DNA of 64,000 nucleotides from Planobispora longispora (GTDB lineage Bacteria > Actinomycetota > Actinomycetes > Streptosporangiales > Streptosporangiaceae): positions 124,001 through 188,000 of the forward strand of contig NZ_BOOH01000033.1 of the NCBI RefSeq assembly GCF_016863135.1, written 5' to 3'. Positions within the stretch are counted from its first letter, which is position 1. Every line of letters starts with the position of its first letter. The notes under the pieces are model-generated. The model had not been told where the DNA came from, searched no databases, and saw nothing but the letters and a program-made list of their open reading frames with translations. Position numbers and translations under genes: made by a program. Positions 7,204 through 17,601 of this stretch are shown here, one piece after another.

Positions 7204-8637
7204 TCAGGCGTCGCCCAGTTCGCGGCGGCGGCGGGTCACGTAGTCCCGGAGCTCCTCGCGGATCGCGTCGTCGAGCGGCGGGAGCTCGTACTCCTGGAGC
7301 TTCGCCTGATAGACGTCCGCCGCCCGGGCCGCCGCGTCCTTGGCGCCGCGCCGCATCCAGCGCTCGTAGTTGTCGGAGGAGGACAGCAGCGGCCGGTAGA
7401 AGCAGGTGCGGAAGCGCTCCATGGTGTGCGCCGCGCCCAGGAAGTGACCGCCGTGGCCGACCTCGGCGTGGGCGTCGAAGGCCAGGGACTCCTCGGTGAT
7501 CTCCATCGGGGTGAACTCGTGCTGGAGCATGCGCAGGATCTCCACGTCCATGACGAACTTCTCGAACCCGCTGACCAGGCCGCCCTCCAGCCAGCCCGCG
7601 GCGTGCATGACCCAGTTGGCGCCCGCCAGGAAGGTCGGCAGCATCGTCATCAGCGCCTCGTAGCCGGCCTGGGCGTCGGTCGTCTGCGAGGAGGTCAGGG
7701 CGCCGCCCGAGCGCCAGGGCAGCCCGAAGCGCCGGGCGATCTGGCCGGTGCACAGAAGGCCGACGGCCGACTCGGGAGTGCCGAAGCACGGCGAGCCGGA
7801 CTGCATGTCGATGTTCGACAGGAACGAGCCGAAGATCACCGGACAGCCGGGGCGGATGAGCTGGGACAGGGCGATCCCGGTGAGCGCCTCGGCGATCTGC
7901 TGGACCAGGGTGGCCGGGACCGAGACCGGCGACATGGCGCCCATCAGCAGGAACGGGGTGAGGACGACCGGCTGGTTCGCCGCGGAGTACTCGAACTGGG
8001 CGTCCAGCATGCGGTCGTCCCAGCGCAGCGGCGAGTTGCAGTTGATCAGGGAGATGGTCGCGGGGGTCGTCTCGATGTCGCCGAGCAGGATGCGGGTCAT
8101 CGCGACGGTGTCGGCGGCGTTCGGCCCGGAGACCACGTTGCCCATGTAGACCTTGTCGGTCAGCGTCTGGAGCGCGTAGACCATGTCGAGGTGCCGGGAG
8201 TCGAGCGGGGCGTCGTTCGGCTCGCAGACCACTCCCCCGGCGGAGTCCATCTCCCCGAAGACCTGGGAGAGCTTGCAGAACCGGTGGAAGTCGTCGAGGG
8301 TCGCGTCGCGCCGCACGTCGCCCTCGCGCACGAACGGCGCGCCGTACACCGCGCCGAAGGCCATGTGGTCGCCGCCGATGCGCACGGTGTTGGCGGGGTT
8401 GCGCGCCTGGACGTCGAACTCCCGGGGAGCCTTGGCGACCTGTTCGAGGACGAACTCCGGATCGAAGAAGACGTTGTTCTCCTCGACTTTCATCCCGGCC
8501 CGGCGGAACAGCTCCAGCGCCCGGGGGGACATGAACTCCACCCCGATCTCGGAGACGATGCGCCGCCAGCCCCGGTCGAGGGTGGCCATCGCGTCGGCGG
8601 ACAGGATCTCGTAGCGGGGCATCTGGTTCAGGAACAC
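7204..8637 (-). CDS. MttB-superfamily (COG5598) non-pyrrolysine corrinoid:substrate methyltransferase
   Basis: A 477-residue member of the trimethylamine methyltransferase superfamily. It shows the expected N-terminal SEIGVEFMSPRALELFRRAG and IGGDHMAFGAVYGAPFV regions and the barrel segments LINCNSPLRWDDRMLDA and FGSFLSNIDMQSGSPCFGTP. The frame has no internal amber codon, so it is the pyrrolysine-free type. Characterised relatives of that type demethylate glycine betaine, proline betaine, carnitine or similar quaternary amines onto a corrinoid protein. I chose GTG at 8635-8637 because AAGGAG is five bases upstream; the GTG two codons earlier overlaps that site. It faces the IclR, corrinoid-protein and methyl-THF transferase genes across a palindromic operator. 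Betaine is the likely substrate class by inference from the Sox/DMGO genes in the same window. Confidence 0.92.
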   Translation of the reverse strand: MFLNQMPRYEILSADAMATLDRGWRRIVSEIGVEFMSPRALELFRRAGMKVEENNVFFDPEFVLEQVAKAPREFDVQARNPANTVRIGGDHMAFGAVYGAPFVREGDVRRDATLDDFHRFCKLSQVFGEMDSAGGVVCEPNDAPLDSRHLDMVYALQTLTDKVYMGNVVSGPNAADTVAMTRILLGDIETTPATISLINCNSPLRWDDRMLDAQFEYSAANQPVVLTPFLLMGAMSPVSVPATLVQQIAEALTGIALSQLIRPGCPVIFGSFLSNIDMQSGSPCFGTPESAVGLLCTGQIARRFGLPWRSGGALTSSQTTDAQAGYEALMTMLPTFLAGANWVMHAAGWLEGGLVSGFEKFVMDVEILRMLQHEFTPMEITEESLAFDAHAEVGHGGHFLGAAHTMERFRTCFYRPLLSSSDNYERWMRRGAKDAAARAADVYQAKLQEYELPPLDDAIREELRDYVTRRRRELGDA

Positions 8638-8704
8638 GGCCACTCCTTCTGGACCCTCGTGACCCTCTTGACCCGGATCTGCGGCCGATCTTACGCTCGT
8701 TTAA

Positions 8705-8731
8705 TGGAACTTCGGTTCCACAATATGGAAC
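8705..8731. promoter_or_regulatory. Three-half-site palindromic operator between MttB and IclR genes
   Basis: Three alternating half-sites are visible: TGGAAC at 8705-8710, GTTCCA at 8715-8720 and TGGAAC at 8726-8731. They form two overlapping perfect inverted repeats with 4- and 5-base spacers. IclR-family proteins bind short palindromes of this style, and the divergent IclR gene starts 78 bases away. It probably controls both arms of the corrinoid methyltransferase cluster. Confidence 0.7.
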
Positions 8732-8808
8732 TTCATCCGGGGCTCCGATCTGCAGGACCACGGCGCGCCGGCGCCGCGGCGAGCCCGTGACCAGCAGGGA
8801 GCACCGAC

Positions 8809-9585
8809 GTGAAGACCCCGTCCGGGACGCAGGCGATCGACCGGGCCGCGCAGCTGCTCGTCCGCGTCGTCGAGGCGGGCGAGCCCCAGCCGTTCACCGC
8901 CCTGCTCGCCGAGTCGGGGCTGCCCAAGAGCACCGCCTCCCGCCTGCTGTCGGCCCTGGAGCGGCACGGCCTGCTCCAGCGCGACCGCGACGGCGCCTTC
9001 CGGCCGGGGCCGGTGCTCGCCCGCTACGCCAGCCGGTCCGGCAGCGCCGACCTGGCCGTCACCGCCCAGCCGTACCTGGAGCGGATCGGCGGCAAGACCG
9101 GCGAGACCGTCAACCTCGCCGTGCTCAGCGGCGGCGCGGTCGAGCAGATCGCCCAGGTGGACAGCAGCTACCTGCTCGGCGCGACGAACTGGGTGGGGCT
9201 GCGGGTGCCGCTGCACTGCTCGGCGCTGGGCAAGGTCTTCCTCGCCCACGGCGCGGCCGAGCTGCCCGGGGGCCCGCTGGAGCGCCGCACCGCGCGGACC
9301 GTCACCGACCGCGAGCAGCTCGGCCGGGAACTGGCCGGGATCCGGCGGCGCGGGTACGGCGTGGCCCGCGAGGAGCTGGAACCCGGGCTGATCGCCGTGG
9401 CCGCCGCCGTACGGGGCAGGGACGGCGCGGTCATCGCGGCCCTGTCGGTCTCCGGCCCCTCGGTCCGCCTCACCCCGGACCGCGTCACCGAGACCGGCGA
9501 ACTCCTCGCCGGCGAAGCCGCCGCACTCTCCGAAGTGTTAGGAGCCCCCCTTGACCGAGCAAGAGATCCTGCAGGGCCTCTATGA
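8809..9585 (+). CDS. IclR-family regulator of the corrinoid methyltransferase cluster
   Basis: A 258-residue IclR regulator. The N-terminal winged helix is GTQAIDRAAQLLVRVVE then ESGLPKSTASRLLSALERHG. The effector domain is GETVNLAVLSGGAVEQIAQ, HCSALGKVFLA and REELEPGLIAVAAAV. The start is GTG. Its 3' end overlaps the corrinoid-protein gene by 35 bases in a different frame, and it is divergent from the MttB-like gene across the TGGAAC/GTTCCA operator. That arrangement makes it the obvious local regulator, with the methylated substrate or its product as the plausible effector (inference). Confidence 0.93.
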   Translation: MKTPSGTQAIDRAAQLLVRVVEAGEPQPFTALLAESGLPKSTASRLLSALERHGLLQRDRDGAFRPGPVLARYASRSGSADLAVTAQPYLERIGGKTGETVNLAVLSGGAVEQIAQVDSSYLLGATNWVGLRVPLHCSALGKVFLAHGAAELPGGPLERRTARTVTDREQLGRELAGIRRRGYGVAREELEPGLIAVAAAVRGRDGAVIAALSVSGPSVRLTPDRVTETGELLAGEAAALSEVLGAPLDRARDPAGPL

Positions 9586-10222
9586 CCGGACCCTCGTGGG
9601 CGACGCCCCGGCCGTCCTCGACCTGACCGACCGGGGCCTGGCCACGGGCCTGCCCCCCGAGACCATGCTGTTCGAGGCGCTGATCCCCGCCCTGGAGGAG
9701 GTCGGCGCCCGGTTCGAACGCGGCGACTTCTTCGTGCCGGAGATGCTGATCGCCGGACGGGCGATGGCGGGCGCGATGGAAGTGCTGCGCCCGCTGCTGG
9801 CCCAGACGGGCGCGGCGTCGCTGGGAAGGTTCCTGATGGGCACGGTCAAGGGCGACGTGCACGACATCGGCAAGAACCTGGTGAACATCATGCTGGAGGG
9901 CGCCGGGTTCGAGGTGATCGACCTGGGCGTGCAGGTGGCGCCGGAGAAGTTCGTGGCGGCGATCCGCGAGCACCGGCCCGACATCGTGGGCTTCTCGGCG
10001 TTCCTGACGACGACGATGCCGATGTTCAAGGCGAACATCAACGCGCTGGAGAAGGCGGGCCTGCGCGACCAGGTGATCGTGATGGTCGGCGGGGCCCCGG
10101 TCACGCAGGAGTACGCCGACGCGGTGGGCGCGGACGGCTACGCCGCCGACGCCTCCACCGCCGTCCGCCGCGCCAAGGAGCTCCTGGCCCGGCGCCGCGC
10201 CGTCGCCGGGACGCCGTCATGA
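9551..10222 (+). CDS. Corrinoid (cobalamin-binding) protein of the methyltransferase system
   Basis: A 223-residue MttC/MtbC-like protein. The N-terminal helical cap (about residues 1-85) is of the B12-binding-2 type (EEVGARFERGDFFVPEMLIAG). The C-terminal Rossmann-like B12 domain carries DVHDIGKN, the His ligand of base-off/His-on cobalamin, then FSAFLTTTMPMFK and VGGAPVTQEYADAVGADGY. It should carry the methyl group between the MttB-like enzyme and the methyl-THF transferase. The start is TTG at 9551, supported by AGGAG six bases upstream; no ATG is suitably placed. It overlaps the IclR gene and runs with the same strand as the next three module genes. Confidence 0.94.
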   Translation: MTEQEILQGLYDRTLVGDAPAVLDLTDRGLATGLPPETMLFEALIPALEEVGARFERGDFFVPEMLIAGRAMAGAMEVLRPLLAQTGAASLGRFLMGTVKGDVHDIGKNLVNIMLEGAGFEVIDLGVQVAPEKFVAAIREHRPDIVGFSAFLTTTMPMFKANINALEKAGLRDQVIVMVGGAPVTQEYADAVGADGYAADASTAVRRAKELLARRRAVAGTPS

Positions 10223-10350
10223 ACCCGGACGCCGCCGCCGACCCGGACACCGTCGAAAGCCCGGACACCGTCATGAGGCCGTACGCCGTCGCAAGCCCGG
10301 ACACCGTCACGGACCGGCCGAGGAGGTTCCCGTCGTGCACACCGTTCTGA
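10219..10350 (+). other. Repetitive 43-codon reading frame between corrinoid protein and methyl-THF transferase genes
   Basis: An ATG at 10219-10221 overlaps the TGA of the corrinoid-protein gene (ATGA). It opens a 43-codon frame ending at 10350, just inside the next gene. Its peptide is repetitive, with SPDTV-like units occurring three times (PDTVESPDTVMRPYAVASPDTV), reflecting direct repeats of AGCCCGGACACCGTC in the DNA. It may be a real translationally coupled peptide, but it could equally be a repeat expansion in a 112-base spacer. The next gene has its own GGAGG. Confidence 0.3.
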
Positions 10351-11186
10351 GGTCCCGGACCCGGGAGGTCGTCATCGGCCCCGACCGTCCGTTCTGCGTC
10401 ATCGGGGAGCGCGTCAACCCCACCGGCCGCGCGAAGTTCGCCGAGGCGCTGCGCGCGGGCGACCTCTCCCAGGTGATCGTCGACGTCCGGCGGCAGGCCG
10501 AGGCCGGGGCGCACGTTCTCGACGTGAACGCGGGTGTGCCGCTCACCGACGAGGCCGAGCTGCTCACCTCCATGATCAAGATCACCCAGGAGAACACCGA
10601 CCTGCCGCTGTGCATCGACTCCTCGGTGGTCGAGGCGCTGGCCGCGGGGCTGGCGGTCTACCAGGGCAAGGCGCTGGTCAACTCGGTGACCGGCGAGGAC
10701 GACCGGCTCGCCGAGATCCTCCCGCTGGTCAAGCGGCACGGCGCGGCGGTGATCGCGCTGGCCAACGACGAGACCGGGATCCCCGAGACCGCCGAGCAGC
10801 GGCTGGAGATCACCGGGAAGATCGTCCGGGTGGCCACGGAGGAGTACGGCATCCCGATCGAGGACATCGTCGTCGACCCGCTCGCGATGGCCGTCGGCGC
10901 CGACACCGACGCGGTGAACGTGACGCTGGAGACCATCCGGGCGATCCGCGACGCCTACGGGCTCAACATGTGCCTGGGCGCCTCCAACGTCTCCTTCGGC
11001 CTGCCGGACCGGCACGCGCTGGGCTCCGCCTTCCTGGCGATGGCCGCCGCGGCCGGGCTGACCAGCGCCATCATGAACGCGCTCGCCCCCGAGTGCGTGA
11101 CCGCCGCCCGCGCCTCCGACCTGCTGCTCGGCAAGGACCCGTGGGGCTCGAACTGGATCTCCGCCTACCGGGCCCGGCAGGGATGA
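10335..11186 (+). CDS. Methyltetrahydrofolate:corrinoid methyltransferase (pterin-binding family)
   Basis: A 283-residue pterin-binding TIM-barrel protein (MtrH/AcsE/MtgA-like). Diagnostic segments are FCVIGERVNPTGR at the N-terminus, AGAHVLDVNAGVPLTDE, LCIDSSVVEALAAGL, ALVNSVTGEDDRL and NMCLGASNVSFGLPDRHALG. It should move the methyl group from methyl-corrinoid to tetrahydrofolate, or the reverse. The GTG start at 10335 has GGAGG 8 bases upstream. Its stop overlaps the start of the RACo gene (ATGA), so translation is probably coupled. The presence of this enzyme indicates that the module feeds methyl groups into folate rather than coenzyme M. Confidence 0.95.
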   Translation: MHTVLRSRTREVVIGPDRPFCVIGERVNPTGRAKFAEALRAGDLSQVIVDVRRQAEAGAHVLDVNAGVPLTDEAELLTSMIKITQENTDLPLCIDSSVVEALAAGLAVYQGKALVNSVTGEDDRLAEILPLVKRHGAAVIALANDETGIPETAEQRLEITGKIVRVATEEYGIPIEDIVVDPLAMAVGADTDAVNVTLETIRAIRDAYGLNMCLGASNVSFGLPDRHALGSAFLAMAAAAGLTSAIMNALAPECVTAARASDLLLGKDPWGSNWISAYRARQG

Positions 11187-13150
11187 CAGCGCAGGACCCC
11201 GCGGCGCAGGACCCCGCAGCCGGGCGCGGCCCCGGAGCCGGACGGGACACCGGCCCCGTGACCGGACGGGACAGCGGGACCGGCCGGGTGCGGCTGCGCC
11301 TGCTGGCCGAGGGCAGGCCGCCCCGGGAGGTGACCGTGCCGCCGGGGGTGAGCGTGTTCGAGGCGGCGAGCTGGAACGGCGTCGCGATCGACTCGACGTG
11401 CGGCGGGCACGGGACCTGCCGCAAGTGCAAGGTCAGGGTGGCGGCCCCCGGTGCGGGGGGCGGGAACGACGGGAGTGCCCCGGACCGCGCGGACGGCACA
11501 GGGGGAGCGGGCTGCCCGGTGCCGGTCTCCCGGCTGGATCCCCGGGCGTTCACCCCGGAGCAGCTGCGCGAGGGGTGGCGGCTGGCCTGCCTCGCCCGGG
11601 CCGTCTCGGATCTGGAGGTGGAGATCCCCGCGCTGTCCACCCGTCCGAAGGCGGCGACCGTGGGGGTCGGGCGGCAGGTCATCCTCCGCCCCGCCGTGCA
11701 GAAGCGCTACGTCGAACTGGCCGAGCCGTCCCTCTCCGACCAGACCCCCGACCTGGAACGGCTCCTGGCCGCCCTGGACGACCTGGAGCCGGTGCCGGAC
11801 CTGCACGCCGTACGGGCCGCGGGAAAGACGATGCGGGCGGCGGACTTCAAGGTCACCGCCGTGGTGGTGGACGACGTCCTGATCGACGTGGAGCCCGGCG
11901 ACACGAGCGGGTCGCGCTACGGGGTGGCCTTCGACCTGGGGACGACGACGGTCGTGGCCACGCTGCTGGACCTGTCGTCGGGGACGCCGGTGGCGGTGCG
12001 CTCGATGCTCAACCTCCAGCAGCCGTACGGCGCGGACGTGATCTCCCGGATCAGCGCGACGATGCTGGACCCCTCGGCGCTGGACCGGCTGCGGGACGCG
12101 GCGCGCGAGACGCTGGACCAGCTCGCGCGGGAGGTGTGCAAGGAGGGGGACGTCTCCCCCGGGCACGTCTACGAGGTGGCGCTCGCCGGGAACGCGACCA
12201 TGGTCCATCTCGTCCTGGGCGTCGACCCCGAGCCGCTGGGGGTGGCGCCGTTCGTGATGGCCACCCGCGCGCTGCCCGCCCTGCTCGCCTCGGACCTGGG
12301 CCTGCGGTTCCATCCCCGGGCGCGGGCCGTGGTGCTGCCCGCGCCGGGGGCGTACGTGGGCGGGGACATCGTGGCCGGGGTCCTGGCCTCCGGCATGGAC
12401 CGGGACCGGCGGCTGCGCCTCTTCATCGACGTGGGCACGAACTGCGAGATCGTGCTCGGTGACGCCGACCGCCTGCTGGCCACCGCCGCCCCGGCGGGCC
12501 CGGCCTTCGAGGGCGCCCAGATCCGCTGCGGCATGCGCGCCTCGGCCGGGGCGATCGAGACCGTACGGCTGACGCCCTCGGTGGAGCTGGGCGTGATCGG
12601 CGACGTCGCACCGGCGGGGTTGTGCGGGTCGGGGCTGGTGGACGCGGTGGCGGAGCTGCTGCGGGTCGGGCTGCTGGACCGCTCGGGGCGGTTCGTCCCG
12701 GACGAGGAGGCCGTACGGCTGGCGCCGGAGCTGGCCGGGCGGCTGGCCGCGGTCGGCGGGGAGCGGGTCTTCACGCTGGCCGGGGACGTCTTCCTGTCCC
12801 AGCGGGACGTGCGCGAGCTGCAGTTCGCCAAGGCGGCGATCGCGACGGGCTGGCGGCTGCTGCTGGCGGAGCACGGCGCCGCGGAGGACGAGATCCAGCA
12901 GGTCCTGCTGGCCGGGTCCTTCGGCTCCTACCTGTCCCCGGCCTCGGCCGTCCGGATCGGCCTGGTCCCGCGGCTGGCCCTGCCCCGGATCGTCAGCGCG
13001 GGCAACGTCGCCGGGGAGGGCGCCAAGCTCGCCCTGCTCTCGGTCCAGGAACGCGCCGGGGCCCTCGCCCTCCTGGAGGAGATCCACTATGTCGAACTCT
13101 CCGACCGCCCCGACTTCAACGACCGCTTCGTCGACCTCCTCGCCTTCTGA
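11183..13150 (+). CDS. Reductive activator of corrinoid protein (RACo-like, ASKHA domain, 2Fe-2S)
   Basis: A 655-residue protein. The N-terminal ferredoxin domain has the cluster Cys motif CGGHGTCRKC (Cys73, 79, 82) and a fourth Cys at 136 in WRLACLARA. A linker and a RACo middle domain follow, then a C-terminal ASKHA/actin-like ATPase with GVAFDLGTTTVVATLLDL, LAGNATMVHLVLGVD, FIDVGTNCEIVLGD and LLAGSFGSYL. RACo uses ATP to reduce inactive Co(II)-corrinoid back to Co(I). Between Cys82 and Cys136 there is an unusually long Gly/Asp-rich insert, and residues 1-35 are a repetitive Ala/Gly/Asp tail. It starts with an ATGA overlap on the methyltransferase gene, completing a reactivatable corrinoid system. 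Confidence 0.94.
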   Translation: MTAQDPAAQDPAAGRGPGAGRDTGPVTGRDSGTGRVRLRLLAEGRPPREVTVPPGVSVFEAASWNGVAIDSTCGGHGTCRKCKVRVAAPGAGGGNDGSAPDRADGTGGAGCPVPVSRLDPRAFTPEQLREGWRLACLARAVSDLEVEIPALSTRPKAATVGVGRQVILRPAVQKRYVELAEPSLSDQTPDLERLLAALDDLEPVPDLHAVRAAGKTMRAADFKVTAVVVDDVLIDVEPGDTSGSRYGVAFDLGTTTVVATLLDLSSGTPVAVRSMLNLQQPYGADVISRISATMLDPSALDRLRDAARETLDQLAREVCKEGDVSPGHVYEVALAGNATMVHLVLGVDPEPLGVAPFVMATRALPALLASDLGLRFHPRARAVVLPAPGAYVGGDIVAGVLASGMDRDRRLRLFIDVGTNCEIVLGDADRLLATAAPAGPAFEGAQIRCGMRASAGAIETVRLTPSVELGVIGDVAPAGLCGSGLVDAVAELLRVGLLDRSGRFVPDEEAVRLAPELAGRLAAVGGERVFTLAGDVFLSQRDVRELQFAKAAIATGWRLLLAEHGAAEDEIQQVLLAGSFGSYLSPASAVRIGLVPRLALPRIVSAGNVAGEGAKLALLSVQERAGALALLEEIHYVELSDRPDFNDRFVDLLAF

Positions 13151-13787
13151 GGTGGGGGTGGTGGCGTGCGGGGCGCTGGCGGGGCACGTGCGGGACATCG
13201 CGGGGCGGCGGGGCTGGGCGGTGGAGGTCTATCCGCTCGCGCCGCTGCTGCACAACCGGCCCGCCGCCATCGCCGCCGCGGTCGAGGCGGTGATCGAGGA
13301 GGTCGGGGACAGGCACCGGCGGCTGGCGGTGGCCTACGCCGACTGCGGGACCTACGGAGCCCTCGACGAGGTGTGCGGGCGGCGCGGGCTGGTACGGCTC
13401 CGCGGCGAGCACTGCTACGACGTCTTCGCCGGGCGGGACGTGCGCGAGCTGACCGAGCAGGAGCCGGGGACGTTCTTCCTCACCGACTACCTGGTCCGCA
13501 CCTTCCGCCGCTCCGTCGTCGCCGAGCTCGGCCTCGACCGGTACCCCGGCCTCCGCGACGCCTACTTCGCCCACTACCGCCGCGTCGTCTGGCTGGCCCA
13601 GCGCCCGACCCCGGACCTGCGCGCGCGGGCCGTCCGGGCCGCCGCGGCCCTGGGCCTGCCCCTCCTGGTCCGCGAGGTGGGGGACGCGGGCCTGGAACGC
13701 GGGCTGGAGGAACTCGTGAACCCGTACCCGGGAACCGCGGAACCCGGTGAAGCCGTATCCGGGGACCTCGTAGAACAAGGTTCGTGA
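13089..13787 (+). CDS. DUF1638 protein, translationally nested in the RACo 3' end
   Basis: A 232-residue DUF1638 protein with VVACGALAGHVRDIA, YPLAPLLHNRP, LAVAYADCGTYGALDE, HCYDVFAG and GTFFLTDYLVRTF. Members of this family regularly sit beside methylamine/betaine corrinoid methyltransferases, but no biochemical role is established that I know of. The conserved Cys and His residues suggest metal or corrinoid handling. The ATG at 13089 lies 62 bases inside the RACo gene, in another frame, and has a strong GGAGGAG seven bases upstream. A GTG at 13152 lacks any such site. The C-terminus contains imprecise repeats. Confidence 0.88.
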   Translation: MSNSPTAPTSTTASSTSSPSEVGVVACGALAGHVRDIAGRRGWAVEVYPLAPLLHNRPAAIAAAVEAVIEEVGDRHRRLAVAYADCGTYGALDEVCGRRGLVRLRGEHCYDVFAGRDVRELTEQEPGTFFLTDYLVRTFRRSVVAELGLDRYPGLRDAYFAHYRRVVWLAQRPTPDLRARAVRAAAALGLPLLVREVGDAGLERGLEELVNPYPGTAEPGEAVSGDLVEQGS

Positions 13788-13993
13788 TACCGGTCTGGCC
13801 CCGCGGTCATATTCGCGCCGTCCCTCCCGTCACCCCATTGACAGGCCAGGGGACGAGGAGAAGTGTCCGGGTATATCTCCGCGAGTCTGCGCGGCCAGAC
13901 TTCCGGCGGCACGTCATCGAGCGTTCATGGGCCCTGCGATCCTCGGTGGCGCCGCCGTGCCCGAACCACGACGCGAGCGACTGGAGAGAGCGT
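13788..13993. promoter_or_regulatory. Intergenic region with a consensus-like -35 element
   Basis: This 206-base spacer precedes the metzincin gene. A perfect TTGACA occurs at 13838-13843. No convincing -10 lies 17 bases later, although TATATC occurs at 13872-13877. An open frame runs through the spacer into the metzincin gene, but its composition is not protein-like, so I treat the spacer as non-coding leader. Confidence 0.3.
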
Positions 13994-16180
13994 ATGTCCG
14001 CTCCATCCGACCCGACCCAGGGGACATCGGCGTCCCTGTCCGGCGTGACCGACCTCGAACAGCATCTGCGCGAGGAGACGGTCCAGGCCGAGGGGAGGGT
14101 TCCCGAACAGCATGAGGCGGCCGGCCTCTACCAGGAGACCCAGTGGCAGCTGACGCGCGGCAGATACCGCAGCGGGGGCCAGGGCTACCAGCTCGAACTC
14201 CGGGTGGACGTCGACGGGACCCGCCCGCAGAACCGGGTCAGCGCCGACTTCTTCTCCATCAGCGGGAGCACGGTCTCCTACTTCGGCTCCTTCATCGTGC
14301 ACTTCCCCACGGTCGCCGTCACCGCCGACCAGGTCGTCCTGGAGGGCCTGGGAATCTTCACCTTCACCGCGGGCGCCCCCCGGGTGCGCGTGACCGTTCC
14401 GCGCCGGACGACCGCGCAGCCCCAGGCCGACGCCACCGTTCAGTTCCTCACCGACTCCGGCCGGCCCGGCGCGAACTACGCCTGCGCGTTCGTCTCGCCG
14501 TACTTCCGCAGCGTGATCCTGGAGCAGGACTCGGTGACCGGGTCCGTGCCGTTCGTCTCCTACAACACCGCGGCGCTGCCCCAGCCCCCGAGCAGTCCGG
14601 CGCGCGTGCTCACGGTCGTGAAGTCCTACGCCGAGGCCGGCATCGAACTGCAGATGTCGGGCATCTCCGACATCATCACCGACGCTCCGGGCACCGACCT
14701 GCGCTGGGACGACGCCGAGCTGCACAACGCGATGGTGCAGCACTTCAGCGGTCACGCCAACGCGCCGCAGTGGAAGGTGTGGATGCTGGTCGCCAGCGCG
14801 CACACCGGCGGCTACCGCGGGATCATGTTCGACTACAACGACGCCAGCCAGCGCCAGGGCGCGGCCGTCTTCTACGACGCCATCAAGGGCGACACCCCGC
14901 AGTCCCAGCGCGCCCAGCTCCGCACCTACGTGCACGAGATCGGCCACGCCTTCAACCTGCTGCACTCCTGGCAGAAGAACCTGGCCGTGCCGCCCCAGCC
15001 GCTCGGTCCCAACGGCGGTTTCGCGGACCTGAGCTGGATGAACTACGTCCAGAACTACCGTCCCGTCTCCGGCGCCGGGGGCGAGGCCGCCTACTGGGCG
15101 GCGTTCCCGTTCCAGTTCACCGACAGCGAGCTGGTCCACCTCCGCCACGGCAACTACCGTGATGTGATCATGGGCGCGAACCCCTTCGCGACCGGCGCGG
15201 CGGAGATCTCCCCCGAGCTGTTCGAGGAGCCGGTCGAGGACCAGTCGGGCCTGGCCCTGGAGGTCCGCGCCAAGGAGACCTTCGCCTTCGGCGAGCCGGT
15301 GGTCGTCGAGCTCAAGCTCTGCACCACCGACCTGCGCGGTCGCAGCACCCACGGCCACCTGCACCCGGACACCGACTTCACGCACATCGCGATCACCCAG
15401 CCGTCCGGCCGGACGGTGCTCTACCGGCCGATGATGCGCCACTGCTCGGACGATGCGGCCACGATCCGGCTCGACGGGAACAACCCGGCGATCTACCGCA
15501 GCGCCTACATCGGCCACGGCGCCGACGGGCACTACTTCCAGCAGCCCGGTGAGTACCGCATCCGGGCCCAGTACCTGGCCGGCGACGGTTCCCGGATCGT
15601 CTCCCCGGTCTGCGTGCTCCGGGTCCGCTACCCCCTCGCGCAGGCCGACCAGGAGGTCGCCGAGCTGATGCTGGGCGAGGAGGCGGGCACGCTGCTGTCC
15701 CTGCTCGGCTCCGACTCCCCCTGCCTGACCTCGGGCAACAACGCGCTGCGCGAGGTGATCGAGCGGTACGGCGACCATCCGCTGGCGGTGTACGCCCGGA
15801 TGGCCCAGGGCATCAACGCCGAGCGCGAGTTCAAGGACATCACCGCCGACAAGGAACTGAAGATCCGCCGGCCCGACACCAAGGAGAGCATCCAGCAGCT
15901 CACCGCGGTCGCGGACGCGTCGGCGAGGGGCGAGGGCGTCGACAACATCACGCTCAACATGGTGATGCGCCGTCTGGCCCGCGCCCAGGCCAGGCAGGGC
16001 GACCTGGAGCAGGCCACCGGCACGATCGACAAGATGGTCCGCACCTTCGAGTCCAAGCAGCTGCGTCCCCCGGTGCTGGAGCAGATCCGCGGGCAGGCCG
16101 AGCGCACCAAGGCGGCGCTCCTCGCCGAGGCGGGGAAGGGCCCCACCCAGAAGAACCAGAAGAACCAGAAGAAGCAGTGA
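13994..16180 (+). CDS. Metzincin-like zinc metalloprotease with beta-sandwich and helical C-terminal regions
   Basis: A 728-residue protein with the extended zinc-binding signature HEIGHAFNLLH (His314, Glu315, His318, His324). A Met-turn-like SWMNY (Met349) lies 25 residues later, which is metzincin geometry; the usual Gly of HEXXHXXGXXH is Asn321 here. Residues 1-250 are beta-rich. After the catalytic domain, about residues 410-545 resemble an Ig-like/beta-sandwich domain, and 550-715 are helical, possibly TPR-like. No signal peptide or membrane segment is seen, which is unusual for this class. The tail is KNQKNQKKQ. The ATG at 13994 has GGAGAG upstream. The small gene that follows appears to be its partner. 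Confidence 0.75.
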   Translation: MSAPSDPTQGTSASLSGVTDLEQHLREETVQAEGRVPEQHEAAGLYQETQWQLTRGRYRSGGQGYQLELRVDVDGTRPQNRVSADFFSISGSTVSYFGSFIVHFPTVAVTADQVVLEGLGIFTFTAGAPRVRVTVPRRTTAQPQADATVQFLTDSGRPGANYACAFVSPYFRSVILEQDSVTGSVPFVSYNTAALPQPPSSPARVLTVVKSYAEAGIELQMSGISDIITDAPGTDLRWDDAELHNAMVQHFSGHANAPQWKVWMLVASAHTGGYRGIMFDYNDASQRQGAAVFYDAIKGDTPQSQRAQLRTYVHEIGHAFNLLHSWQKNLAVPPQPLGPNGGFADLSWMNYVQNYRPVSGAGGEAAYWAAFPFQFTDSELVHLRHGNYRDVIMGANPFATGAAEISPELFEEPVEDQSGLALEVRAKETFAFGEPVVVELKLCTTDLRGRSTHGHLHPDTDFTHIAITQPSGRTVLYRPMMRHCSDDAATIRLDGNNPAIYRSAYIGHGADGHYFQQPGEYRIRAQYLAGDGSRIVSPVCVLRVRYPLAQADQEVAELMLGEEAGTLLSLLGSDSPCLTSGNNALREVIERYGDHPLAVYARMAQGINAEREFKDITADKELKIRRPDTKESIQQLTAVADASARGEGVDNITLNMVMRRLARAQARQGDLEQATGTIDKMVRTFESKQLRPPVLEQIRGQAERTKAALLAEAGKGPTQKNQKNQKKQ

Positions 16181-16211
16181 CCACGGATCAGAAGAAGCAG
16201 TGGACCACGGA
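16165..16211 (+). repeat. Direct duplication of the stop-codon region
   Basis: A 22-base segment spanning the metzincin stop codon (16165-16187) is repeated at 16189-16211 with a one-base insertion that changes TGA to TGG. Inside the gene end there are also three 9-base AACCAGAAG-like repeats encoding the KNQ tail. Confidence 0.85.
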
Positions 16212-16284
16212 ACGGTGACCCGAAAAGAGGTGACATGTCCGTCACGGGTGACATGATCACCGGGAAACCGAGAAGGAAGACACC

Positions 16285-16767
16285 GTGATCCGGATAGAAC
16301 TGACCGCTCCCGGCGGGCCGTACCCCGCCGGGAAGCCGGTCCCCGTGACCGTGTCCGTCGTCAGCACGTCGGACGTGCTGCTCGTCGGCGTCCTCGACGG
16401 CTCGGAGGACGGCAGCCGCTACCCCCGTTACCGTCCCACGGTCTCGCTCGGCGGCCGGGTCGTCGCCGCCCCGCCCGCCCCGGAGGACCCCCTCGTCGGC
16501 CCCCTGCGGCTCTCCGATTTCGTCCGGCTGGCGCCCGGCGAGCCGTACGACCCCTGCACGACCCGGACGCTGGCGACCTTCGAGACCTTCGTCCCGGACG
16601 GCCCCGGCTCCTACGCCTACGAGCTGACCCTCGACACCGAGAGCGACACCCCCGAGCAGTGGCTCGGCCGCGTCGGCCAGACCGACGTCCCCGAGGTCCT
16701 GACCCTGGTCCGCGAGGTCCCCCGCCTCCGGATCACCTCCTCCCCCCTGGTCGTCGAGATCCGCTGA
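16285..16767 (+). CDS. Small beta-rich hypothetical protein, probable partner of the metzincin
   Basis: A 160-residue protein starting with GTG. It has an alternating hydrophobic pattern typical of an immunoglobulin-like beta-sandwich (MIRIELTAPGGPYPAGKPVPV, YAYELTLDTESDTPEQW, RLRITSSPLVVEIR). The opening PAGKPVPVTVSVVS resembles the intracellular Ig-like domain of the upstream metzincin (LALEVRAKETFAFGEPVVVEL). No signal peptide or Cys pair is present. It follows the protease gene by 104 bases on the same strand. I do not recognise a named family. Confidence 0.6.
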   Translation: MIRIELTAPGGPYPAGKPVPVTVSVVSTSDVLLVGVLDGSEDGSRYPRYRPTVSLGGRVVAAPPAPEDPLVGPLRLSDFVRLAPGEPYDPCTTRTLATFETFVPDGPGSYAYELTLDTESDTPEQWLGRVGQTDVPEVLTLVREVPRLRITSSPLVVEIR

Positions 16768-16990
16768 ACCGTCCGGGCGGCCGCTCCCACTCGTCCCGGG
16801 CTCGCCTCCCCGTCCACCGCGTCGGCGAAGCCCGGCACGGTGGTGCCCGTGACGCCGCCTCCGCGTGCGGCTGGTCGCGGAAGGCGATGAGAAGATGCGA
16901 TCTCCGGCGTGCGCGCCGGGAACCGGATGGCGGTGGACGGCGGAGTAGGGGGTGAGGGCGCGGACGCGCCCCGCGAAAGGACCCCTTGCG

Positions 16991-17014
16991 ATGACTGGAC
17001 GAAACGGGTGGTGA
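16991..17014 (+). other. Seven-codon leader frame overlapping the sigma-factor start
   Basis: An ATG at 16991 opens a seven-codon frame encoding MTGRNGW. Its TGA (17012-17014) overlaps the most likely GTG start (17011-17013) of the ECF sigma gene. AAAGGA lies nine bases upstream of the ATG. This could couple translation of the sigma factor to a leader peptide. It is short enough to occur by chance. Confidence 0.35.
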
Positions 17015-17601
17015 CCCTGTCGCTCCCCCAACGGGCGACGGAGCCCGCGCCGCCCCCGCCCTTCGACGACGCGGCGCTGATCGAGGCGTCGCTGGCGGAT
17101 CCCGACCGGTTCGCCGTGCTGTTCGACCGGCACGCCGACGAGATCCACCGCTACGCCGCACAGCGGCTCGACGACGTCACCGTGGCCGACGACGTGACGG
17201 CCGAGACGTTCCTCGTGGCGTTCCGCAAACGCGCCCGCTACGACCTGGCCAGGCCCGACGCCCGGCCCTGGCTGTACGGCATCGCCTCGAAGCTGATCTC
17301 CGGCCACCGCAGGGCCGAGACCCGCAGGCTCAAGGCGCTCGCCCGCCAGGCCCCGGAGCGGGCGACCGGTTTCGAGGAGCGCAGCGCGGAGCGGGTGACC
17401 GCCGACGGGCTCCGGCCCGCGCTGGCCGCCGCGCTGGCGAAGCTCGGCTCGGCGGAGCGCGAGCTGCTGCTCCTGGTCGCCTGGGCCGAGCTCAGCTACG
17501 AGGAGGCCGCCCAGGCGCTGGACATCCCGATCGGGACCGTGCGCTCCCGGCTCTCCCGCACCCGAACCAAGATCCGTCGCTCCCTGGAGTCGCGCCCATG
17601 A
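17011..17601 (+). CDS. ECF-type RNA polymerase sigma factor
   Basis: A sigma-70 family ECF factor of about 196 residues. Region 2 covers FAVLFDRHADEIHRYAAQRL and VADDVTAETFLVAFRKRARY. Region 4 covers LGSAERELLLLVAWAELSYEEAAQAL with the recognition segment IPIGTVRSRLSRTRTKIRR. The reading frame is open further upstream (to 16909), but the leading 34 residues do not look like a conserved domain. I favour the GTG at 17011 that overlaps the seven-codon leader. It is followed by a CU044_5270-type membrane protein with an ATGA overlap, a recurrent actinobacterial pairing in which the second gene probably acts as regulator or sensor. Confidence 0.93.
   Translation: MTLSLPQRATEPAPPPPFDDAALIEASLADPDRFAVLFDRHADEIHRYAAQRLDDVTVADDVTAETFLVAFRKRARYDLARPDARPWLYGIASKLISGHRRAETRRLKALARQAPERATGFEERSAERVTADGLRPALAAALAKLGSAERELLLLVAWAELSYEEAAQALDIPIGTVRSRLSRTRTKIRRSLESRP

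Follow-up and report, generated by a model that had tools for sequence, protein, structure and literature searches.

Can a metzincin act inside the bacterial cell that makes it, and would it have a regulator of its own there? Two adjacent genes of Planobispora longispora (Actinomycetota; Streptosporangiaceae) raise this question. They lie in a stretch of 64,000 nucleotides, here called the window (RefSeq assembly GCF_016863135.1, contig NZ_BOOH01000033.1, positions 124,001 to 188,000 of the forward strand), and the coordinates below are counted from its first letter. The first gene (13994..16180, + strand) encodes P1, a leaderless multidomain metzincin-like protein of 728 residues; the second (16285..16767, + strand) encodes P2, a small partner of 160 residues with a predicted immunoglobulin-like (Ig-like) fold. 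An earlier note, made from the sequence alone, had suggested that the two may form a protease-inhibitor or protease-adaptor pair. Our favoured reading, to which we give slightly less than an even chance, is that P1 is an intracellular metzincin regulated by P2 as its inhibitor.

An intact metzincin site in a protein without evident export signal

P1 is read from an ATG at 13994 to a stop at 16180, with a putative ribosome-binding site, GGAGAG, recognised by eye at 13983-13988; a reading from the longer open reading frame (ORF) start at 13784 is not needed. Its zinc-binding motif, HEIGHAFNLLH (residues 314-324; 14933..14965, +), has the metzincin pattern HExxHxx[G]xxH/D with the catalytic Glu and with Asn at the Gly position, and behind it stands the Met-turn SWMNY (residues 347-351; 15032..15046, +). 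The earlier note had the gene coordinates, both motifs and residue E315 right. In an alignment of 28 P1 family sequences (A5), which includes the window protein and reaches down to 28% identity to it, H314, E315, H318, N321, H324 and M349 are invariant in 28/28, as are S347 and Y351 of the Met-turn. The three His, the Glu and the Met also stay invariant in a wider set of 33 sequences with remoter relatives, where N321 is kept in at least 90%; the usual Gly is found in one remote relative, L068 (HEIGHAMGLVH).

The Asn had been pointed out earlier as a departure from the motif. The replacement is real, but it is no oddity of this protein. Because it is invariant in the 28 sequences and the characterised protease ulilysin has it too (HEIGHWLNLYH), it is no argument against activity, and the idea that Asn321 marks a dead enzyme was rejected. 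From the intact site we infer that P1 is a zinc-dependent protease.

The earlier statement that P1 has no export signal holds for the family at large: none is evident in 55 members with corrected starts, by a simple hydropathy test (not a signal-peptide program) in which the maximal 15-residue hydrophobic stretch within residues 1-45 has a Kyte-Doolittle mean of at most 1.29. P1 is thus probably cytoplasmic.

The structure model of P1, built from 28 sequences, has a predicted local distance difference test score (pLDDT) of 82.2 and a predicted template modelling score (pTM) of 0.83. It places a disordered tether (residues 11-47), a beta domain, a metzincin domain, an Ig-like domain and a helical domain resembling tetratricopeptide repeats (TPR-like) one after the other. 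The modelled catalytic domain (residues 170-393; 14501..15172, +) has the metzincin fold, with a venom metalloproteinase as best match (4j4m; Z 11.5, 162 residues, root-mean-square deviation (rmsd) 3.6). Venom metalloproteinases, ADAM8 and ADAMTS score Z 10.5-11.5, archaemetzincin 2x7m Z 10.2 and ulilysin 2cki Z 9.9. When the P1 family profile is compared with solved structures, ulilysin ranks first, through the 22-residue stretch HEIGHWLNLYHIW (E 0.0008). The top Foldseek ranks for P1, a beta-glucosidase and the O-glycan protease OgpA, were discounted, with long alignments at rmsd ~20 and low TM-scores. On motif, Met-turn and predicted fold, we place P1 in the metzincin clan.

The domains that the earlier note described as added, Ig-like and helical, both appear in the model. 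The N-terminal all-beta domain (residues ~53-180; 14150..14533, +), defined by model strands and the alignment, opens with RGRYRSGGQGYQLELRVDVDG. The Ig-like, CARDB-like domain (residues ~415-545; 15236..15628, +) is defined by model strands, by its similarity to P2 and by a Foldseek match of P1 to the CARDB structure 3idu (E 7.3e-4, printed without a model range). For the predicted TPR-like domain (residues ~550-715; 15641..16138, +) the match is FKBP51 against residues 545-728 (Z 6.9, 144 residues, rmsd 4.4), below the level at which the tool is trusted for helical folds; TPR models match some P1 relatives.

Within the clan, we file P1 outside family M43 and the reprolysins because the profile tests failed. 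P1 scores 17.4 bits against Reprolysin_3 (M12B-like), below the cut-off of 22.4, and has no match to the M43 profile PF05572 at E up to 1. Among its relatives, L065 and L061 exceed the Reprolysin_4 cut-off, and L005 and L067 match PF05572 weakly (E 0.095 and 0.12). Archaemetzincins, which are leaderless and for which we know of no P2-like partner, share the metzincin fold with P1. Their motif continues with a four-cysteine signature (PMC3427221; here and below, papers are cited from excerpts), which is absent from P1. The unicellular pappalysins of M43, ulilysin and mirolysin, have the metzincin fold as well; enzymes of this type are secreted and carry a Cys-Gly pro-segment (PMC6949598), and ulilysin cleaves casein and other substrates (PMC9445424). 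P1, unlike these enzymes, has neither an evident export signal nor any Cys in residues 1-50, and the Cys-Gly pro-segment is thus missing from it. A literature search returned nothing on metzincins of Nonomuraea or metalloproteases of Planobispora, the term HExxHxxNxxH was not found in the metzincin literature among the matches listed, and excerpts on intracellular bacterial metzincins with tetratricopeptide domains held nothing about the P1 family.

A small Ig-like protein encoded behind P1

The P2 gene begins with a GTG at 16285, preceded by AAGGAAG at 16273-16279 (by eye), and ends with a stop at 16767; 104 bases separate it from P1. Its model, made from an alignment of 12 members, is an Ig-like sandwich (pLDDT 91.7, pTM 0.87). 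VIA-align 2 was used to rank the Foldseek candidates, rows within 1 Z counting as tied. The top match is to chain residues 23-152 of AsaP1 (2x3a; Z 7.9, 113 residues, rmsd 3.5), which we take to be the pro-domain of this metalloprotease; this Ig-like part lies inside the protease chain, unlike P2, which has a gene of its own. In second place stands the intracellular proteinase inhibitor (IPI) of Bacillus subtilis (3isy; Z 7.8, rmsd 3.3), aligned over 111 residues of its 117-residue chain, with values of Z below 8 being only suggestive.

By sequence profile P2 matches no named family with confidence. For the window protein neither Pfam (E up to 1) nor NCBIfam gave a match, and the sole Pfam match of the 12 members (E up to 10, HMMER filters on) is that of one member to DUF3809 (E 0.19). 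Since the BsuPI/IPI profile is matched by 0/12 members at E up to 10, P2 is filed outside the BsuPI family, and its assignment to BsuPI or any other named family was rejected on these profile searches. A comparison with the sequences of solved structures gave no relative, only a chance match to beta-2-microglobulin (E 1.3). Emfourin and TIMP are absent from the list of fold matches, which excludes neither; P2 has no Pfam match to emfourin, and whether Pfam holds an emfourin model was left unchecked.

Conservation in P2 is concentrated in loops, which make up 86 of the 160 positions and hold 18 of the 23 invariant residues. Seven of these lie in GVLDGSEDGSRYP (residues 35-47; 16387..16425, +), the most conserved stretch and a candidate contact loop. 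Such a bias is as expected if the loops make contacts.

The earlier note had called P2 a small beta-sandwich in the style of the Ig-like domain of P1. The model bears out the sandwich, and the similarity is marginal: hhalign gives a local P of 6e-4, a global P of 1.4e-4 and a probability of 28. The other parts of P1 give local P values of 0.017 (N-terminal), 0.3 (catalytic) and 0.6 (helical), and global values of 0.055, 0.054 and 0.93, respectively. Because this profile similarity is highest for the Ig-like domain, P2 may have descended from it or share a common root with it.

Recurrence of the gene pair

We scanned one genome per species with a few peptide patterns for P1 and fetched 51 loci; because the patterns were few, distant members were missed. 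At 11 of the 51 loci, in addition to the window, P2 stands directly behind P1 on the same strand. These loci belong to Planobispora and Planomonospora (five together), Virgisporangium, Streptomyces sp. NRRL S-646, Motilibacter, Pyrinomonadaceae, Telluribacter and Ferruginibacter, and hence to Actinomycetota, Acidobacteriota and Bacteroidota; in Ferruginibacter, P2 is divided between two frames. Adjacent genes conserved together, as expected of an operon, are therefore found in three phyla. The earlier note had staked its proposal on the two genes occurring together elsewhere, and they do. The order is kept even where the P2 proteins are only 36-53% identical to that of the window, with spacings from a 17-base overlap to 206 bases apart (window and 10 loci, with starts chosen by us). 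Both genes look to be under selection, with ratios of nonsynonymous to synonymous substitution rates (dN/dS) of 0.25-0.54 for P1 and 0.36-0.63 for P2 (NG86, five species pairs each).

P2 was found in 6/150 genomes of the window's family (four of the window's genus, two of one other genus), in 2/396 genomes of its phylum (the window's own and G035) and in 2/296 genomes of Bacteroidota, namely Telluribacter, around which the sample had been drawn, and the carrier of a distant relative. Five of the six genomes outside the window's genus that were reached through their loci have exactly one P2, and Ferruginibacter has one, split. In Bailinhaonella and one P2-free Streptomyces, the two genomes searched for this purpose, there is no P2 elsewhere. 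The distant relative in Bacteroidota (L090, 10016-10663) appears by eye to carry a signal peptide, and the ORFs listed around it include no P1; it may represent this Ig-like fold in an exported role. In Telluribacter (L054, 8103-8152), a perfect 25-base inverted repeat without spacer lies between the two genes, possibly a terminator or regulatory hairpin.

P2 as a possible inhibitor or adaptor

In the reading that we favour, P1 would be a metzincin-clan zinc protease at work in the cytoplasm. P2 would be an Ig-like regulator dedicated to it, most likely inhibiting it reversibly by covering the catalytic cleft or an exosite. The Ig-like and TPR-like domains of P1 itself would present substrates or position the enzyme. 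Recurrence of the pair, the fold matches of P2, albeit below Z 8, and its marginal similarity to the Ig-like domain of P1 fit the earlier proposal of an inhibitor or adaptor.

We regard the two as a new family pair, though of a kind already known, and by analogy they would work most like protealysin-emfourin or Isp1-IPI. Protealysin belongs to family M4, and P1, a metzincin, has beta, Ig-like and TPR-like domains besides. In the protealysin-emfourin operon of Serratia proteamaculans, an intracellular metalloprotease and a small inhibitor are co-encoded, and the two bind 1:1, with the inhibitor in the region of the active site (PMC9505478); the genes of protease and small partner stand together in both systems. 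Isp1 of B. subtilis is a subtilisin homologue, unlike P1, and its inhibitor is the IPI whose fold P2 may resemble while failing to match its profile. A metzincin gene of Listeria adjoins the gene of a small TIMP-like protein resembling an inhibitor, but that metzincin is a secreted enzyme that cleaves its lipoprotein partner, and the locus is phage-like (PMC8235301), unlike P1-P2.

Several observations weigh against inhibition by P2. The fold matches are a lead and not proof, since a Z below 8 may mean a common arrangement only and the rows are tied: sugar-enzyme, sugar-binding and other Ig-like domains follow from Z 7.4 downward, and the best Foldseek match is a glycosidase (E 0.076). No Pfam inhibitor model matches any of the 12 P2 members, and IPI itself is reported to be ineffective against metallopeptidases (PMC3901451). 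P2 is not seen at 39/51 P1 loci, so most P1 proteins go without it and it is not obligatory for P1. The loci without P2 include every judgeable Nonomuraea, Bailinhaonella, Planomonospora parontospora and four Streptomyces; one further contig, L032 of Nonomuraea, breaks off 77 bases past P1, too early for a judgement. G035, of the window's phylum, keeps P2 with only the first part of P1, MSVLSDPT-like, upstream in another frame (L075, 8826-9427), an apparent deletion remnant in which the protease was lost and the partner kept.

In a rival reading, P2 would be an adaptor, chaperone or activity modulator, an extra copy of the Ig-like domain of P1 that binds P1 or its substrates. The marginal similarity between P2 and that domain speaks for this, the list of structural matches is rich in binding domains, and P2 can go missing while P1 stays, with five state changes on the P1 tree described below. 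Against it, the list is headed by two families from the protease field, a pro-domain and an inhibitor, though other rows tie with them. We regard the adaptor role as unlikely, if second only to inhibition.

The N-terminal tip of P1

Regulation by P2 need not be the only control of P1. The protein opens with a tip of the form M-x(1-5)-D-P-[TN], here MSAPSDPT (13994..14017, +), a candidate latency segment, followed by a variable, unconserved tether (residues 9-50; 14018..14143, +) that is predicted to be disordered. As residues 1-10 of the model average a pLDDT of 66, with 1-3 and 11-47 below 50, the tip may rest on the folded part. The tip is found in 17/55 family rows: all 12 with P2 and five without. 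Nonomuraea proteins begin straight at the beta domain and have neither tip nor P2. For this count the tip state of L047 (DPN) was assigned by hand, and the start of L048 possibly lies three codons further upstream; duplicates (L002, L003, L004, L007, L008 and L060), fragments (L057 and L059) and partial, broken or very distant sequences (L062, L063 and L066-L069) were left out. Behind the link between tip and P2 stand only two to three independent pairs, too few for a statistical test.

On a tree of the 55 rows, made by a quick method, with several long branches and without an inferred root, P2 changes state five times and the tip three times. Because the combination of tip and P2 occupies deep branches of the core clade, both look ancestral there, and our reading of this unrooted tree is that they were lost rather than gained. 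Two relatives, L005 (Planobispora takensis) and L065 (Embleya), have, where the tip would stand, ~230-280 additional N-terminal residues that look repetitive by eye; hemopexin-like repeats were suspected there by eye and dropped, with no Pfam support at E up to 1.

One explanation of the DP[TN] tip is that it is a targeting or export tag and not a latency segment. Tags typically take such a form, short and conserved at the end of a long variable tether, and the tip is kept in five P1 proteins without P2. The pattern MS-x-x-[ST]-DPT with an ATG start occurs at five places in four genomes (a control pattern at one). Two of these are P1. The other three comprise the start of a 253-residue ORF of a different kind, the start of a 107-residue ORF and a site within a longer ORF. 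This narrow pattern passes over P1 starts at GTG; because the search gave nothing convincing, a shared general tag is not evident. No compartment, injection or export gene is common nearby either, and we consider a tag quite unlikely.

The tip might instead be a second lock besides P2. Pro-segments that place an Asp on the zinc are known in metzincins, as the aspartate switches of astacins, karilysin and fragilysin (PMC9629494), and by analogy our guess is that the Asp of the P1 tip could cap the zinc likewise. In its fullest form this idea makes P1 a doubly locked cytoplasmic metzincin, in which the invariant tip Asp would fold back on a 40-residue tether to cap the zinc, P2, derived from the Ig-like domain of P1, would lock the enzyme in trans, and lineages such as Nonomuraea would have dropped both. 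No metzincin controlled by an N-terminal Asp tip together with an Ig-like lock in trans was found in the literature searched, and as a whole we hold this scheme to be very doubtful.

Neighbouring genes and distribution

Neighbouring genes were compared over ten stretches, with a low-complexity filter and with frames overlapping P1 removed: seven P2-bearing representatives (window, L043, L047, L048, L052, L054 and L055) and three without P2. In the seven, P2 is common to every pair of surroundings, and the only other shared match is a marginal one (E 1e-5) between L047 and L054, in unlike places. No secretion, injection, delivery, compartment or export gene is common to them. Among the three P2-free stretches, downstream genes of Nonomuraea L017 recur in the window, and one gene ~3 kb away is shared by L015 and L042.

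These surroundings bear on a further possibility, that P1 acts against other bacteria as an effector set free by lysis or by a non-Sec route, with P2 as the immunity protein of its producer. The toxin-like adjacent order and the patchy spread over phyla fit, and such a role has been proposed for protealysin-emfourin (PMC9505478). P1, however, can persist without an immunity gene, as the 39/51 loci without P2 show, and the seven surroundings have no delivery gene in common. There was no PADLOC match that would speak for a defence system, no phage-record match, and none of 19 viral-contig stretches was confirmed, and on these searches a phage or defence origin of the pair was rejected; a PHROGs search gave a single meaningless match (E 0.36). 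We judge the effector role very unlikely. That the two genes are neighbours by inheritance only, without joint action, is highly unlikely: P2 is indeed not seen beside many P1 relatives, but adjacency and order persist at 36-53% P2 identity in three phyla while the other neighbours differ.

Upstream of P1 in the window lies a corrinoid methyl-transfer cluster (7204-13787) with an MttB-type methyltransferase (PF06253, E 4e-187), a B12-binding protein, a pterin-binding enzyme, a RACo-type reactivase and a DUF1638 protein. Directly behind the pair is a gene for a sigma-70 family sigma factor that resembles the extracytoplasmic function (ECF) type (16909-17601); among the matches listed, related ORFs stand behind P1 in L009, L012, L014 and L035 too.

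The 51 P1 loci come mostly from Planobispora (including rosea, takensis and siamensis), Planomonospora and Nonomuraea, with outliers in Streptomyces, Virgisporangium, Motilibacter, Bailinhaonella, Thermoactinospora, an acidobacterial bin and two Bacteroidota. Remoter relatives are on records of Rhizobium, Arthrobacter, Embleya, Caballeronia, Methylobacterium and the archaeon Halocatena; in Rhizobium (L064, 2674-5403), BNR-type repeats and a ferritin-like domain (PF12902, E 4e-51) are found in the product of the gene ahead of the P1 relative. The family is rare: of 396 genomes sampled from the window's phylum, 3 have it, one of them being the window's own. In the plasmid collection P1 matched seven records, several being very large replicons and all but one below 60% identity, and P2 matched none; a plasmid origin was rejected as well.

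Biological significance

Archaemetzincins, being leaderless, are the exception that we know of among metzincins; pappalysins, astacins and the Listeria metzincin are secreted enzymes in the excerpts of literature consulted. The Asn variant, shared by the whole P1 family, cautions against calling such proteins dead by motif alone. If P1 acts as we favour, under the control of P2, a multi-phylum family without evident export signal and with an Ig-like partner would show that metzincins also act inside bacterial cells, and P1-P2 would offer a compact pair of protease and regulator.

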